A DNA stretch of 34,657 bases from Bacillota bacterium (lineage in GTDB: Bacteria > Bacillota > UBA4882 > UBA10575). Below are positions 27,395-34,158 of the stretch, piece after piece. Both the position numbers and the translations under genes were made by a program. Positions within the stretch are counted from its first letter, which is position 1, and each line of letters begins with the position of its first letter. Under the pieces are notes generated by a model. That model was not told the origin of the DNA. It was given only the letters and a program-made list of their open reading frames with translations, and ran no database searches. The stretch spans positions 1 through 34,657 of the forward strand of contig DUQR01000037.1 in the NCBI GenBank assembly GCA_012837715.1, in the 5' to 3' direction.

Positions 27395-27517
27395 TAGCAG
27401 GATTTTGCAGAAAAATAACGAATTGTATTACAATATTGCGACTAAAGGGATTGACGAAAATGCGTAAAAGATTGCTGATCCATATTTTGGGCAGATGGTG
27501 GCGGGAGGAGAAAAGTC

Positions 27518-29461
27518 GTGGAAAATAAAGGTTTCGGCGCAGAAACTATTTTTATTATTGAGGAGAATTGCCAGGGATGTAATAAATGCATTAGAAATTG
27601 TCCGGTGTTTGGCGCTAATGTTTCCTATACGATCGACGGTGCGACCAAAGTGCGGGTGAATCCGAAAATGTGTATCCATTGTGGAAAGTGTATCGACGTT
27701 TGCGACCATAACGCCAGAGATTACAGGGATGATACAGAGCGGTTCTTCCAAGATCTTCAACAAGGAAAGGAGATCTCGGTATTGGTTGCTCCCGCGGCGC
27801 GGGCTAACTTCCCCGAGTATAAGCGGGTGATCGGGTACTTAAAGGAAGCGGGGGCCCATTTGGTCTACGATGTTTCCTTTGGGGCGGATATTACGGTTTG
27901 GGCTTATCTGAAAGTAATGGCGGAGAAAGGGGTTAGTTCGATTATTGCCCAGCCTTGTCCGGTAATCGTAAATTATGTGGAGAAACACAATCCCGTGTTA
28001 CTTGATTACCTGGCGCCGGTCCATAGCCCGATGCTGTGTGCAGCCATTTATTTACGGAAATATCAGGGATGTCGGGACCGACTAGCCTTTCTTTCCCCTT
28101 GTATCGGAAAGAGCGATGAGATCCGGGACACCAACACCGAAAAGATCGTTACATATAATGTAACCTTCAAAAAATTGAACGCTTATCTCACCATGAAGGG
28201 CATAAATTTAAACGAGTATCCGGAACGGGAATTTGACGACCCCGGTTGCGGGTTGGGCTATGTTTTTCCGCGGCCGGGCGGCCTCAGGGAAAATGTACAG
28301 GCGATAGCGGGGAAGATCTGGATTCGGCAAGTCGAAGGACAGGAAGAAGCCTATCATTATTTGCATGAATACAGACGACGACTGGAAAGAGGAAAAAAGC
28401 TCCCCCCTTTGGTGGATATTCTGAACTGTCCGTATGGCTGCAATAAAGGAACCGGAACTAACCAAGAGGTTGATCTCGACGATATTGACCTGGCGATGGA
28501 GGCGTTCGCTCAAGAAAAGTCAGCGGATGAAAAAAGTCGGAAACTGAAGAACTCCTCCGCGAAACTGTTTAAGATCTTCAATAAAGAGTTGAAACTGGAT
28601 GACTTTTACCGCCGGTATAAAAAAGTGGAAGTGCAACCCTTAATGGAACCAACCCCGGAAGAGTATGCCGCGATTTTTTTGAAACTGCATAAGGATACGC
28701 CTGATTCCCAAAAGATCAACTGCTCGGCGTGTGGTTATCAAACCTGTCATGAGATGGCCAGAGCAATCTTTAACCAACTGGACCGGCCGGAAGATTGTAT
28801 GGATTATAACAGAAAAGAAGTCATTCGGGAAAATTTACGTCTAGAAGAAAAGAACCGGGAGATCGAAAGGATGTTGGCGGAGATAACCCAGCTCAGCGAC
28901 GAACGGCAGCAACGGGCCGCAGAATTAACCAGGCGTATCCATGAAATCACCATCTCCATGGAGCAGGTCTACCGTGGAAATGAACAGGCGGCTCAAGAGA
29001 TTGAAAAGATCGGGTCTGATGTGGGCGAGGTGGCCGAGTACGCCGAAAGACTCCGAAAGCTGGTCGCCGAGATCAATGACAATGTCGATCGCTTTACCGA
29101 AGCGACCGGGGATATCCTTGGTGTAGCGCGCCAAACAAAAATTCTTTCTTTGAATGCCGGGATTGAAGCGGCGAGAAGTGGCGAACACGGTAAAGGATTT
29201 AATGTGTTGGCTCAAGAAATCAAAAGACTGGCTGAGGAATCTCAGAATACTGCGGAAGAGGCCTTAGGGAATGAGGAGGCTATTCAAGTTCTGGTCGTCA
29301 AGGTGTTTGAGATCTCCAACACAATTGATCAGAAGATGGCCGCGGTTAATATGGCGATTAAGAATATTGCGGCCATCATTCAAGAATTTATTGCCCAGGG
29401 TGAAGAGATGGTGGCTGCCACCACTAACATTGTCCATGACTATACTCGCAACCAGGATTGA
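27518..29461 (+). CDS. Soluble chemoreceptor with ferredoxin and [FeFe]-hydrogenase-like sensor domains
   Basis: This 647-residue protein has no signal peptide or membrane helix. Residues 18-28 and 52-62 are two CxxCxxCxxxC [4Fe-4S] ferredoxin motifs. Residues about 85-330 form an [FeFe]-hydrogenase H-cluster-like domain with all four cluster cysteines: C147 (AQPCPVIVNYVEK, motif L1), C195 with Lys198 (SPCIGKSDE, L2), and C304/C308 (LNCPYGCNKGTG, L3). The proton-relay Cys that precedes the L1 ligand in catalytic enzymes is Pro here, and the L2 Met is Ser, as expected of a sensor rather than an efficient catalyst. Cys402, 405, 410 and 427 form a further [4Fe-4S]-type motif. A coiled coil (about 435-475) leads to an MCP signalling domain with the conserved tip KILSLNAGIEAARSGEHGKG. 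It probably senses H2, CO or redox state and signals to CheA. GTG start, GGGAGGAG 7 nt upstream. No che or hyd maturase genes are nearby. Confidence 0.9.
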   Translation: MENKGFGAETIFIIEENCQGCNKCIRNCPVFGANVSYTIDGATKVRVNPKMCIHCGKCIDVCDHNARDYRDDTERFFQDLQQGKEISVLVAPAARANFPEYKRVIGYLKEAGAHLVYDVSFGADITVWAYLKVMAEKGVSSIIAQPCPVIVNYVEKHNPVLLDYLAPVHSPMLCAAIYLRKYQGCRDRLAFLSPCIGKSDEIRDTNTEKIVTYNVTFKKLNAYLTMKGINLNEYPEREFDDPGCGLGYVFPRPGGLRENVQAIAGKIWIRQVEGQEEAYHYLHEYRRRLERGKKLPPLVDILNCPYGCNKGTGTNQEVDLDDIDLAMEAFAQEKSADEKSRKLKNSSAKLFKIFNKELKLDDFYRRYKKVEVQPLMEPTPEEYAAIFLKLHKDTPDSQKINCSACGYQTCHEMARAIFNQLDRPEDCMDYNRKEVIRENLRLEEKNREIERMLAEITQLSDERQQRAAELTRRIHEITISMEQVYRGNEQAAQEIEKIGSDVGEVAEYAERLRKLVAEINDNVDRFTEATGDILGVARQTKILSLNAGIEAARSGEHGKGFNVLAQEIKRLAEESQNTAEEALGNEEAIQVLVVKVFEISNTIDQKMAAVNMAIKNIAAIIQEFIAQGEEMVAATTNIVHDYTRNQD

Positions 29462-31082: not shown

Positions 31083-31123
31083 CTAAAAAAAACCCGCCGG
31101 CGCTTCGCGCTTCCGGTGGGTTT
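31083..31123 (-). terminator. Intrinsic terminator of homocysteine/metF operon
   Basis: On the minus strand AAACCCACCGG pairs with CCGGCGGGTTT, with one mismatch and an inner GCGC-GAA-GCGC hairpin, followed by eight T in all. The stem overlaps the metF stop codon. Confidence 0.88.
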
Positions 31124-32009
31124 ATGCTTCTGCTTTTAGATGTTTACGGATCCCGGCAATTTGGCTGAAAATCTTCTTCGCCACCTCCGGTCTGTTCATC
31201 GTGTACAGATGGATCCCATCCACCCCGCTGGAGAGCAGGTCGATGATTTGTTCTGTGGCGTAGGCGATGCCCGCTTCCTTTAATGCTTCCGGATTGTCTT
31301 CGTATTTGTCCAGGATCCGTCGGAACTTTGGCGGGATACTAGCCCCGCAAAGGCTGGTGATCCGCTCGATCTGCTTTTTATTGATTACCGGCATGATCCC
31401 GGCGGAAACCGGGGTCTTCACTTCCATCAACGCCAGTTTTTCACGAAAAGCATAGAATAAGTTATTATCCAAAAAAAGCTGGGTGATGAGAAAATCAACC
31501 CCGGCTTTGACCTTTCTTCTTAAATTCAATAAATCGGTCAGGGCGTTTTCGGCTTCGGTATGCACCTCTGGGTAGCAGGCCGCCCCGATACAAAAACCCC
31601 CGGTTGCTTTGATATAGGCAATCAAGTCGGCGGCATAGGTAAAATCGGAAAGGAGAGGCGCATCCGGACTCTCCTTCTCCGGTCGGTCGCCTCTTAGTGC
31701 TAAAACATTCTCCACCTTGGCTTTTTGCAGTTGACCAAGAACTTCCCCCACCTCTTCCCGGGAGGAATTGATACAGGTGAGATGGGCAAGGGCTTCGATC
31801 CCGTATTTGTTTTTGATGGTATCGGCAATCTGGACGGTATAGGCTTTACTGCCCCCGGCGGCGCCGTAGGTGACACTGATGAAATCGGGGCGGAGCACAG
31901 AAAGGGCATCAATGGTCGCGAAGACCCCGTCAAGGGGGGTTCCGGGTTTGGGGGGAAATATTTCCAGGGAGATGACGGGTTTCTTTTTATATAAATCGAT
32001 GATTCTCAT
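31122..32009 (-). CDS. metF: 5,10-methylenetetrahydrofolate reductase MetF
   Basis: This 295-residue cytoplasmic flavoprotein reduces methylene-THF to methyl-THF, the methyl donor for methionine synthesis. Family landmarks are SLEIFPPK (catalytic Glu16), FISVTYGAAGGS, HLTCIN, NVLALRGDRP (FAD site), FCIGAACYPEVHTEA, GVDFLITQLFLDN and GIMPVINKKQ. The length is normal for the bacterial type without a regulatory domain. GGAG lies 6 nt before the ATG. It is the last gene of the SAM-riboswitch operon, 12 nt after the COG2122 gene. In this context it supplies the methyl group for the homocysteine made by the upstream genes. No methionine synthase is seen in the window. Confidence 0.96.
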   Translation of the reverse strand: MRIIDLYKKKPVISLEIFPPKPGTPLDGVFATIDALSVLRPDFISVTYGAAGGSKAYTVQIADTIKNKYGIEALAHLTCINSSREEVGEVLGQLQKAKVENVLALRGDRPEKESPDAPLLSDFTYAADLIAYIKATGGFCIGAACYPEVHTEAENALTDLLNLRRKVKAGVDFLITQLFLDNNLFYAFREKLALMEVKTPVSAGIMPVINKKQIERITSLCGASIPPKFRRILDKYEDNPEALKEAGIAYATEQIIDLLSSGVDGIHLYTMNRPEVAKKIFSQIAGIRKHLKAEA

Positions 32010-32021
32010 TTTATTCTCCTT

Positions 32022-32744
32022 TCATGGCCGGGTTAGATTAATCCGCCCGTAGGCGCCCATTTTATCTCCGATGATGATTACAACTCCTTCCACCCCGGGA
32101 ATGGCCATCGCCGTTTCGATCCCCTTTTCAATCTCTGCTGCTGTTGTTACTTGGTTGGCCACGGCGGTAGCCGCCGCATCGGCCAGCAGCGCATCCCTGG
32201 CGACAATGACCACCGCATCGGCCCGGCCAAAACTTAAAGCGGGGCCCACGGTACCGCTGGAAGCACAGATCCCCCATGGCTGGTAATCACCGGGAACCAA
32301 AAGGGCAAGACGGTTGGAAAAAGGAGAATCACCCGCATAAATCAGCACTTTTCGCTCGCAACCGGTGACGAGAAAAAGGTCGCCACCGTTCTCAATGATG
32401 ATCTCCTTGGTCTTCCTTAACAAGGAAAACCCTACATACTGGGCAAGAGCGCCGGCGACGGCTGCCATCGGCCCGACCTTTGCCGCTTGGGCCGCTTGAC
32501 ACATGGCGACAATAATCTCCGGACTCCCCTCGGGCGGTGTCACCGGAACAAGACTATGGAGGAAAGTTGGATCTTTTCTGATCTGGCCCTGGATTTCCCG
32601 CCGGTATTTACGCAAGACTTGCCGGGCTTGGTCGGCCAAATTAACCTCGGCAAAGATTTGCAGATCCGATTCTTGTTCGGTCACATTAAAACAGCATAAA
32701 TCCTTAGTCTGCATAAACTCCCGGTAAAACCGTTGCTCATGCAT
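32022..32744 (-). CDS. UPF0280/COG2122 protein of anaerobic sulfide assimilation
   Basis: This 240-residue protein belongs to UPF0280 (COG2122), distantly related to the ApbE flavin-transferase fold. Typical segments are the KVGPMAAVAGALAQYVG helix, EIIIENGGDLFLV and the C-terminal AVVIIIGDKMGAYGRINL. In Methanosarcina the COG2122 protein MA1715 is reported to improve sulfide assimilation together with the DUF39 and ferredoxin proteins; here all three are adjacent, which supports the same role. The start overlaps the ferredoxin gene by 8 nt, behind a weak GGTGG ribosome site. No signal peptide is present. The biochemical reaction is not established. Confidence 0.88.
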   Translation of the reverse strand: MHEQRFYREFMQTKDLCCFNVTEQESDLQIFAEVNLADQARQVLRKYRREIQGQIRKDPTFLHSLVPVTPPEGSPEIIVAMCQAAQAAKVGPMAAVAGALAQYVGFSLLRKTKEIIIENGGDLFLVTGCERKVLIYAGDSPFSNRLALLVPGDYQPWGICASSGTVGPALSFGRADAVVIVARDALLADAAATAVANQVTTAAEIEKGIETAMAIPGVEGVVIIIGDKMGAYGRINLTRP

Positions 32745-32943
32745 AGAGCCACCGTACCGAGGTGTTGAGCGTAATCGCCCGTAACGGACAGGCTTTCAGA
32801 CAGCTGCCACAATCCTCACAACATTCTTCGTCAAAGACGAGGGTTGCCTCCGGCCCGCTTAAGCGGAGAGCCGCCGGAGCACAGACCGCTGTACAAGCTC
32901 CACAGTGAACACACTTTACCCGATCTATATTTATGATCGACAT
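32737..32943 (-). CDS. 2[4Fe-4S] ferredoxin of homocysteine synthesis operon
   Basis: This 68-residue ferredoxin has two CxxCxxCxxxC motifs: C11, C14, C17, C21 and C42, C45, C48, C52, with an extra Cys41. The first motif is followed by Ala instead of the usual Pro. It lacks the NIL domain found on some homologues in this pathway. GGAGG is 7 nt before the ATG, and it starts 2 nt after the DUF39 stop. It is expected to donate electrons for reductive sulfur transfer by the DUF39 protein, as in the MA1821/MA1822 pair of Methanosarcina. Confidence 0.9.
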   Translation of the reverse strand: MSIINIDRVKCVHCGACTAVCAPAALRLSGPEATLVFDEECCEDCGSCLKACPLRAITLNTSVRWLYA

Positions 32944-32945
32944 TT

Positions 32946-34115
32946 TTATTCCTCCCTTTTCGTTATTTCCAATGTTTTCAAGCCCGGGACTTTAGGGAAA
33001 AACTCAATCGGCGGTTGCAGCGTGAATTTTTCTTGGGCGACCCACCTTTTGAGCTCCTGCGCAATCTGTCTGGCCTTATGCAAGCTGGAAAGGGGCGCCG
33101 TTTTGACCCTTTTCCCTTCCAGGATAATTTCACCCGTCCTTAGCTCGGCATAACTGCATTGGCCAAGCACCGGCCGGGACCGGCTAGGCACGCTGTAGTC
33201 GATAATCCGGGTGTAGATCTCCTTGTTTTCCACCGCCAGTTTCACCAGTAAATCTTCGTCCAGAACGGGGATGGGAATGCCAATCCCCACAAAGATGGAA
33301 GTGCCGTATTTTTCAATGACTGCCGGTTGAATATATTCGGTGCTCATCTTTTTCAGATCGCCGATCACCGCCAGGGTACCGGCGGGCGAAAGGGGGATCC
33401 CGTTTTCGCTGCGCGGCTTTTCGGTGACAAACTGGGTTCCTTGCCAGGAAACATAACCGGGCGCCCCACCCAGGAAGATCTTGGTGCCGATCCCGATCGT
33501 CCGGAGCTCAGGATCATTCAACAACGGGCTTAATTCTCCGGATGTGGAGTAATTCACATTACCCATTTGCGGCTGTAAAACCCCCATGTAGGTATAGATG
33601 GTTCTCTCCGAAGTGTTGGTGGCCGCGGCGTAGTTTTGATAACAGTTCCGGGGGTTAAATAAATAGGCTTCATTGATGGACTCCAGAGAAATATAGGTGT
33701 TAATCTCCTTCCGGGGATAACAATCGGTCCCGGTGGAGGAGGCCTCCAGCTGCACAGTTTTCCCCGCAATCAGATCACAGATCACATGGGCGCCGCCATA
33801 CTCAATTCCCCGGTCCAAGGAAGGTTCGGTTGCGCCGAGATAAGTATCGACCGCCGCCAGGCCTCCATAAGCGTTCACCTTGTTCAATAAGATCTTTCCC
33901 ATCTTGATGGGTGGGTCGGCATGGCCAAAATTAAGGAAGGCGCCTGAAGAACACATGGGCCCAAAGGTGCCGGTGGTCACCACATCCACATATTTGGTGG
34001 CCTCTTTAACCCCTTTTTCCTTGGCGATGTCGATGACTTCTTCGGCGGTCACCACCACAGCGCGGCCTTCTCTGATTTTCGCATTGATCTCCTCGTAACT
34101 TTTTTTAATCCCCAT
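32946..34115 (-). CDS. DUF39/COG1900 homocysteine synthase-like protein
   Basis: This 389-residue protein belongs to DUF39 (COG1900). The Methanosarcina homologue MA1821 converts aspartate semialdehyde and sulfide to homocysteine, bypassing O-acyl-homoserine. Family motifs are VVTTGTFGPMCSSGAFLNFG, GGLAAVDTYLGATEPS, EASSTGTDCYPRKE and LGGAPGYVSWQGTQF. Cys55 and Cys132 in this numbering correspond to the two cysteines reported as essential in the methanogen protein. No CBS domain is attached. An ATG at 34124 is only 1 nt from GGAGG; the ATG at 34115 is 10 nt away and was chosen (the alternative adds 3 residues). It is the first gene after a SAM-I riboswitch, so it is switched off when SAM is plentiful. 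Confidence 0.92.
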   Translation of the reverse strand: MGIKKSYEEINAKIREGRAVVVTAEEVIDIAKEKGVKEATKYVDVVTTGTFGPMCSSGAFLNFGHADPPIKMGKILLNKVNAYGGLAAVDTYLGATEPSLDRGIEYGGAHVICDLIAGKTVQLEASSTGTDCYPRKEINTYISLESINEAYLFNPRNCYQNYAAATNTSERTIYTYMGVLQPQMGNVNYSTSGELSPLLNDPELRTIGIGTKIFLGGAPGYVSWQGTQFVTEKPRSENGIPLSPAGTLAVIGDLKKMSTEYIQPAVIEKYGTSIFVGIGIPIPVLDEDLLVKLAVENKEIYTRIIDYSVPSRSRPVLGQCSYAELRTGEIILEGKRVKTAPLSSLHKARQIAQELKRWVAQEKFTLQPPIEFFPKVPGLKTLEITKREE

Positions 34116-34158
34116 ACTAACCATACCTCCTTTTCATTGGTGGTCCGTGCGGCGGAAC

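Follow-up and report, generated by a model that had tools for sequence, protein, structure and literature searches.

The Locus and the Fusion Protein

The window, i.e. the whole stretch of 34,657 nucleotides analyzed here, is contig 20 of the genome of a Bacillota bacterium, a fragmented draft of 2.43 Mb in 53 contigs with 98.68% completeness. It carries an open reading frame for a soluble fusion protein of 647 amino acids with a GTG start (P0001, hereafter the window protein), in which a 2[4Fe-4S] ferredoxin region, the H-cluster domain (H-domain) of an [FeFe]-hydrogenase, a C-terminal FeS domain and the signaling hairpin of a methyl-accepting chemotaxis protein (MCP) follow one another. Its features are compiled in Table 1.

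Table 1. Features of the gene for the window protein; positions refer to the window, residues to the protein.
Feature	Positions	Strand	Residues	Basis and remarks
Ribosome-binding site GGAGGAG	27504..27510	+		7 nt 5' of the GTG start; read from the sequence
Whole gene, ferredoxin/H-domain/FeS/MCP fusion, 647 aa	27518..29461	+		ORF and Pfam
2[4Fe-4S] ferredoxin region	27569..27706	+	18-63	Pfam Fer4_10/Fer4_7; 8 Cys invariant in 20 fusions
H-cluster domain	27770..28450	+	85-311	PF02906 (Fe_hyd_lg_C), E 5.6e-30; family profile vs solved [FeFe]-hydrogenases, E ≈ 5e-39
L1 motif AQPCPVI	27947..27967	+	144-150	Cys 147 ligand; Pro 146 replaces the proton-relay Cys (CpI C299)
L2 motif LSPCIGK	28091..28111	+	192-198	Cys 195 ligand; Ser 193 = CpI M353; Lys 198 = CpI K358
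L3 motif NCPYGCNKGTG	28424..28456	+	303-313	Cys 304 and Cys 308 ligands; Asn 303 = CpI M497
C-terminal FeS domain, Cx2Cx4Cx16C	28712..28798	+	399-427	PF04060, E 8e-8; Cys 402, Cys 405, Cys 410, Cys 427
Direct coiled-coil linker and MCP signaling hairpin	28799..29458	+	428-647	Tip Glu 556; PF00015, hydropathy, low-confidence model

The ferredoxin ligands are Cys 18, Cys 21, Cys 24 and Cys 28 together with Cys 52, Cys 55, Cys 58 and Cys 62 (Fer4_10 match at residues 11-62, E 3.6e-9), and the MCP signaling domain was matched at residues 518-638 with E 1.6e-19; the Pfam matches of the protein are far beyond chance. The tip, QTKILSLNAGIEAARSGEHGKGFNVLAQEIKRLAEES, is that of a recognizable MCP hairpin. 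Neither a HAMP or PAS domain (Pfam) nor a membrane helix (19-residue Kyte-Doolittle mean, maximum 1.29) was found in the window protein, and the FeS domain is joined directly to a hairpin of the CheA/CheW type. Just this assembly had been described in the initial annotation, two ferredoxin motifs, an H-cluster-like domain, a second four-cysteine motif and an MCP tip in one protein devoid of membrane helices, and its assignment of the individual residues was correct throughout, including the four H-cluster cysteines, the motif from Cys 402 to Cys 427, and the exchange of the relay cysteine for Pro 146 and of the L2 methionine for Ser 193. The Cx2Cx4Cx16C motif has also been described for the sensory groups C and D (PMC8163306).

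Structure prediction, proposed early on, was of limited value: an AlphaFold2 model built from three alignment rows places helices at residues 425-553 and 555-646, over the linker and the hairpin, but with a pLDDT of 46.8 it is too poor for use. In view of this low confidence, the match of a family profile to solved structures is the best substitute for a model. Solved MCP hairpins were matched at ≈ 3e-33; in the top chain among the solved [FeFe]-hydrogenases L1 and L2 are in register and L3 forms a separate weak segment, and chain 7p5h_A was matched in one stretch from residue 9 to 311. Only 91 residues follow the tip, compared with at least 130 in the intact other MCPs of the host; with this shorter C-terminal arm the window protein may not join their arrays, and it probably forms cytosolic assemblies of its own. 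The spacing from Cys 427 to the tip amounts to 129 residues in 11 of 20 aligned fusions, with too few deviations to prove heptad phasing.

Host Genome and Gene Neighborhood

Besides the window protein, the host encodes four H-domain proteins, which makes five in all: L001 and L002 are group A-like enzymes, L003 belongs to group C and has a PAS-like tail, and L004 is group D-like. The gene of the window protein stands alone between neighbors on the opposite strand, a branched-chain amino-acid-type ABC transporter upstream and an unrelated ORF downstream, and the immediate neighbors of the MCP fusion vary among relatives. The nearest named relative, from Hydrogenispora sp. (DUQQ01000009.1, L006), is 78% identical. 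Near the fusion, both the window (31122-34124) and L006 (4270-7357, 10125-13158) hold the same three genes, coding for an MTHFR-like protein, a conserved protein of ≈ 240 amino acids, and a protein of ≈ 390 amino acids that resembles homocysteine-biosynthesis proteins. A methionine-synthase-like gene is additionally present in L006, and a gene for an NSS-type transporter recurs near the fusion in the window, L006 and L084.

The chemotaxis genes of the host comprise two each for CheA and CheW, which had been named early on as partners to look for, as well as those for CheR, CheB, CheC, CheD and a CheY-like regulator. One CheA has a P2 domain and adjoins flhA, CheC, CheD and a sigma factor; FlhA with its neighboring export genes represents the flagellar apparatus. 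The host encodes ≈ 15 MCPs, that is ≈ 14 besides the window protein. Elsewhere in the host genome, an MCP signaling domain is split over two adjoining frames (L029/L031, G000 C40 18821-19349), which looks like a frameshifted receptor gene.

Distribution and Conservation

A full-length MCP fusion occurs in 5 of the 29 genomes of the class, namely the host (G000), G006 with a pair of copies at 81 and 80% identity to the window protein, G007, G009 (78%) and G025 (48%). Counted from match rows and ORFs, the carriers number ≈ 21 in a phylum-wide sample of 398 genomes, and a further fusion was found in a Ruminococcaceae genome (L007, genome G029). Four of the carriers, G383, G227, G084 and G122, are single-contig genomes. 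No relative of the window protein was found in the viral contigs scanned. Four other candidates (L008-L011) were discarded as fusions of this kind: L008 holds a group A-like hydrogenase, and L009-L011 match the MCP or the ferredoxin part only. The fragmented draft state of the host genome might raise the suspicion that the gene is a nonfunctional relic or chimera, or an artefact of assembly. Such an origin is hardly credible, as Hydrogenispora sp., G006, G009, G025 and the four single-contig genomes all have this full-length fusion, and the ligand columns are invariant; an assembly chimera was dismissed on account of these many independent genomes, some of them single-contig.

In an alignment of 20 MCP fusions, whose identity to the window protein ranges from 32 to 81%, all 16 predicted Fe-S ligand cysteines (eight in the ferredoxin region, four of the H-cluster, four in the C-terminal FeS domain) are invariant in 20/20, and so are Pro 146, Lys 198, Ser 170, Glu 273 and Asn 303. 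Cysteines other than ligands drift, Cys 174 being present in 15 of the fusions, Cys 244 in six and Cys 185 in two. At the signaling tip, Asn 546, Ala 547, Glu 550, Phe 561, Ala 565 and Leu 571 are invariant. The alignment at L1-L3 that the initial annotation had called for brings Cys 147, Cys 195, Cys 304 and Cys 308 into line with the group A sequences. In those group A rows that were examined, cysteine precedes the L1 ligand and methionine precedes the L2 and L3 ligands; all three residues are lost in the window protein. Group C proteins of the same class keep the cysteine at L1 and have glycine at L2, and group D rows have serine or alanine at L1. The window clade, on the other hand, has P-C-P at L1 in all intact rows but L166 (SCP), and serine or glycine at L2. 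We know of no purified protein with proline at the relay position. Fast catalysis by the window protein is unlikely, as the side chain of proline cannot relay protons. Among the sensory sequences of HydDB, proline is found at the relay position in ≈ 10% and serine at the L2 position in ≈ 32% (PMC10055695).

Another deviation was noted at L3, where an apparent deletion of one residue turns the canonical C-x3-C of the H-cluster into C-x2-C (e.g. LFCEGCINGP) in L157-L165, L123:7108-9363, L124:7076-9322, L155 and L156. The outputs of these H-domain sensors are of the PAS-histidine kinase or sigma-54 type, except for the two outlying MCP fusions L155/L156.

Phylogeny and Exchange of Output Domains

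With Fe_hyd_lg_C and the four H-cluster cysteines in L1, L2 and L3, the window protein fits the H-domain superfamily of [FeFe]-hydrogenases. Identity with the catalytic group A was rejected in view of Pro 146, Ser 193 and Asn 303, and of the NCBIfam group A/B models, which scored far under cutoff. In a careful tree of 61 H-domains (support given as bootstrap/aLRT; a wider quick tree was also made), the window protein falls into a clade of 29 rows of sensory [FeFe]-hydrogenases with support of 100/100. The sister of this clade consists of the two MCP fusions L155/L156 of a different L1/L3 type (95/93); at the deep node which joins the window clade to other proteins of group C, support is weak (87/59). 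In the broad sense, the protein is of group C, combining ferredoxin, H-domain, Cx2Cx4Cx16C FeS domain and output, and it groups with PAS, HK and sigma54 sensory proteins. The TmHydS type of group C (M2f) was set aside, as no PAS match was obtained for the window protein with Pfam; group D (M2e), hinted at by the serine in L2, was set aside because of the placement outside the D clade (100/100) and the MCP output.

The outputs within the 29-row clade are MCP (18 rows), HK, HK-RR, HATPase-CheX, a PAS-sigma54 activator and GGDEF; rows that were not scanned took the label of similar rows that were. The well-supported branches require the MCP label to have changed at least five times. Such an exchange of signaling outputs within one clade is typical of sensor modules and argues for a sensor role of the core. 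MCP is likely the ancestral output, to judge from the MCP rows on both sides of the first splits. The low activity retained by TmHydS and by TamHydS, the group D protein discussed below, would be in keeping with a slow enzyme, in which the MCP hairpin served mainly as a scaffold or which fed electrons to a partner, with no part in chemotaxis. We regard this as quite improbable, since the other outputs of the clade are signaling domains of the HK, GGDEF, sigma-54 activator and CheX types and the six tip residues are invariant in the 20 fusions.

The HATPase and CheX-like phosphatase joined to an H-domain sensor give proteins of ≈ 1125 amino acids (L137:3156-6536, L138:3075-6452, L139:4990-8367), and in G234 hydG lies ≈ 2.5 kb from such a gene.

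Maturases and Hydrogenase Context

The maturase genes hydE, hydF and hydG, whose absence from the genome the initial annotation would have taken as a refutation, a condition that formally applies here, were not found in the host assembly (98.7% complete) in searches with HydE, HydF and HydG models; the two group A-like hydrogenases of the host should need HydEFG. HydG scored above cutoff in 23 of the 29 class genomes and, among the 24 genomes that carry an MCP fusion, in 20 (raw counts); the four carriers of the class besides the host all have it. Carriers without HydG are G000, G029 (of uncertain completeness), G135 (81% complete) and G343; a HydG match is also absent from the class genomes G004, G013 and G014. 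In G007 (L082) the three genes form one operon, such that a single gap could remove them all. Given the frequency of HydG among the carriers, the missing hydEFG of the host is read as an assembly gap or a lineage loss and not as a refutation.

Another H-domain protein is present in 25 of 26 carrier genomes. The fusion L007 of G029 keeps all 16 ligands in a genome with neither another H-domain protein nor a HydG match. In G084, the genes for HydG, HydF, a sigma54-type H-domain sensor, the MCP fusion, a NuoF-like protein, a group A6 [FeFe]-hydrogenase and pieces of formate dehydrogenase follow each other on one strand (NCBIfam; ORFs), the MCP fusion sharing an apparent operon with hydG, hydF and the [FeFe]-hydrogenase. 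The same order of matches was obtained for G122, and in G145 hydF, hydE and hydG lie ≈ 7 kb from the fusion. A group D-like H-domain gene adjoins the MCP fusion in G152 and G181 (L135:7175-8491, L136:7049-8356), a possible sensor pair.

The lack of hydEFG in the host assembly and of HydG in G029, G343 and G135 would also be understood if only the [4Fe-4S] half of the H-cluster had been kept, with no diiron subsite, in a receptor for general redox, O2 or NO taxis instead of an H2 sensor; with proline in place of the relay cysteine, the usual first acceptor of protons is gone, and ferredoxin and FeS clusters can sense redox by themselves. We take this possibility seriously but consider it unlikely, because the four cysteines and Lys 198 are invariant down to 32% identity, hydG and hydF share the apparent operon of G084 with the fusion, most carriers have HydG, and the H-cluster is accepted by TmHydS and TamHydS in spite of comparable substitutions.

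Proposed Function and Significance

In our opinion, the window protein is probably a cytosolic chemoreceptor, which uses a catalytically detuned sensory [FeFe]-hydrogenase module as its sensor, for H2 (or redox) taxis. The conservation within the family, the exchange of outputs within one clade, the operon of a relative and the che/fla set of the host together give good support to the sensor coupled to a chemoreceptor, as opposed to an enzyme, that the initial annotation had envisaged. The input may be H2, CO or redox, and H-cluster occupancy and ligand are put forward here as predictions. HydEFG would build the H-cluster in the H-domain, where binding of H2 and slow turnover would alter the redox state or the conformation of the sensor module; alternatively, a change in cellular redox state might reach the H-cluster via the two ferredoxin clusters. 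The altered arrangement of H-domain and FeS domain would be passed via the helix leaving the FeS domain into the coiled coil, and the signaling hairpin would change the kinase activity of CheA and bias flagellar rotation. An anaerobe making or using H2 could thereby swim according to the level of H2 or redox. In TamHydS, the C-terminal cluster gives no response to H2, i.e. it is not reduced by H2 (PMC13104023), which weakens a redox relay via the equivalent cluster here; by analogy, a conformational role of the C-terminal FeS domain is favored over one in electron relay.

A more far-reaching proposal can be made only tentatively, as we would put it somewhat below even: the proline-fixed clade might be a dedicated modular chassis for H2 sensing, in which the H-cluster acts on the coiled coil without PAS or HAMP and an ancestral MCP output gave way in time to kinase, GGDEF, CheX and sigma-54 domains. 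It would then be the first molecularly identifiable family of bacterial H2-taxis receptors.

The energetics of syntrophic anaerobic communities are controlled by the level of H2. A methanogen has been reported to show taxis towards H2 (Brileya 2013, as cited in PMC12403587), but to our knowledge no bacterial chemoreceptor for H2 has been demonstrated to function. The present family, with its invariant ligands, naturally swapped outputs and operon context, stands out as one in which H2 taxis can be tested directly. Furthermore, its natural set of proteins with proline in place of the relay cysteine should be useful for learning how an H-cluster signals without fast catalysis.

Comparison with Known Systems

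The initial annotation set the window protein apart from the PAS-bearing sensory [FeFe]-hydrogenases. The direct coupling to an MCP stands, but the protein is not outside the known kinds: the HydDB paper (PMC5037454) has an [FeFe] group C2, labeled 'Chemotactic (putative)', whose members may detect H2 and signal by way of methyl-accepting chemotaxis proteins, and gives its role as undetermined. The chemotactic assignment of C2 is repeated in PMC9431212. Judged by the table entry for C2, the window clade is its natural candidate. The window protein is thus best filed under a known, predicted kind, of which we found no experimentally tested member; what the present analysis adds to this kind are the invariance of the ligands, proline as a signature, the operon context with hydG and hydF, and a view of how far outputs have been swapped.

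Like the window protein, TmHydS from Thermotoga maritima (group C, M2f) has two ferredoxin clusters, an H-domain and a C-terminal FeS domain, and its relay cysteine and both methionines are replaced as well, by Ala 131, Gly 177 and Ser 267 (PMC10055695). TamHydS from Thermoanaerobacter mathranii (group D, M2e) shares the three-part core, the Cx2Cx4Cx16C motif and a hydroxyl residue in place of M353 (PMC8163306). Both proteins, lacking C299 and with M353 replaced, still take up the H-cluster (PMC10055695, PMC10407848, PMC8163306). The differences are equally clear: TmHydS carries a terminal PAS domain where the window protein has its MCP hairpin, with alanine, not proline, at the relay position and glycine, not serine, at L2, whereas TamHydS has no output domain, and in the trees group D is a clade apart.

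In termite-gut treponemes, Ballor, Paulsen and Leadbetter (2012, Microb Ecol 63:282, a title cited in PMC4070709) reportedly described H-domain sensor/transducers thought to act through phosphorelay or methylation pathways, possibly in chemotaxis; the likeness of these hydrogen sensors to the window protein is one of description. The regulatory [NiFe]-hydrogenases HoxBC/HupUV are likewise H2 sensors built on a hydrogenase of low activity; their fold and metal center are unrelated, however, and their kinase output controls gene expression. Finally, the redox and gas chemoreceptors Aer and Aer2 also feed a redox or gas input into an MCP signaling hairpin, but they do so with an FAD- or heme-PAS sensor and HAMP domains, in contrast to the H-domain joined directly to the hairpin in the window protein.
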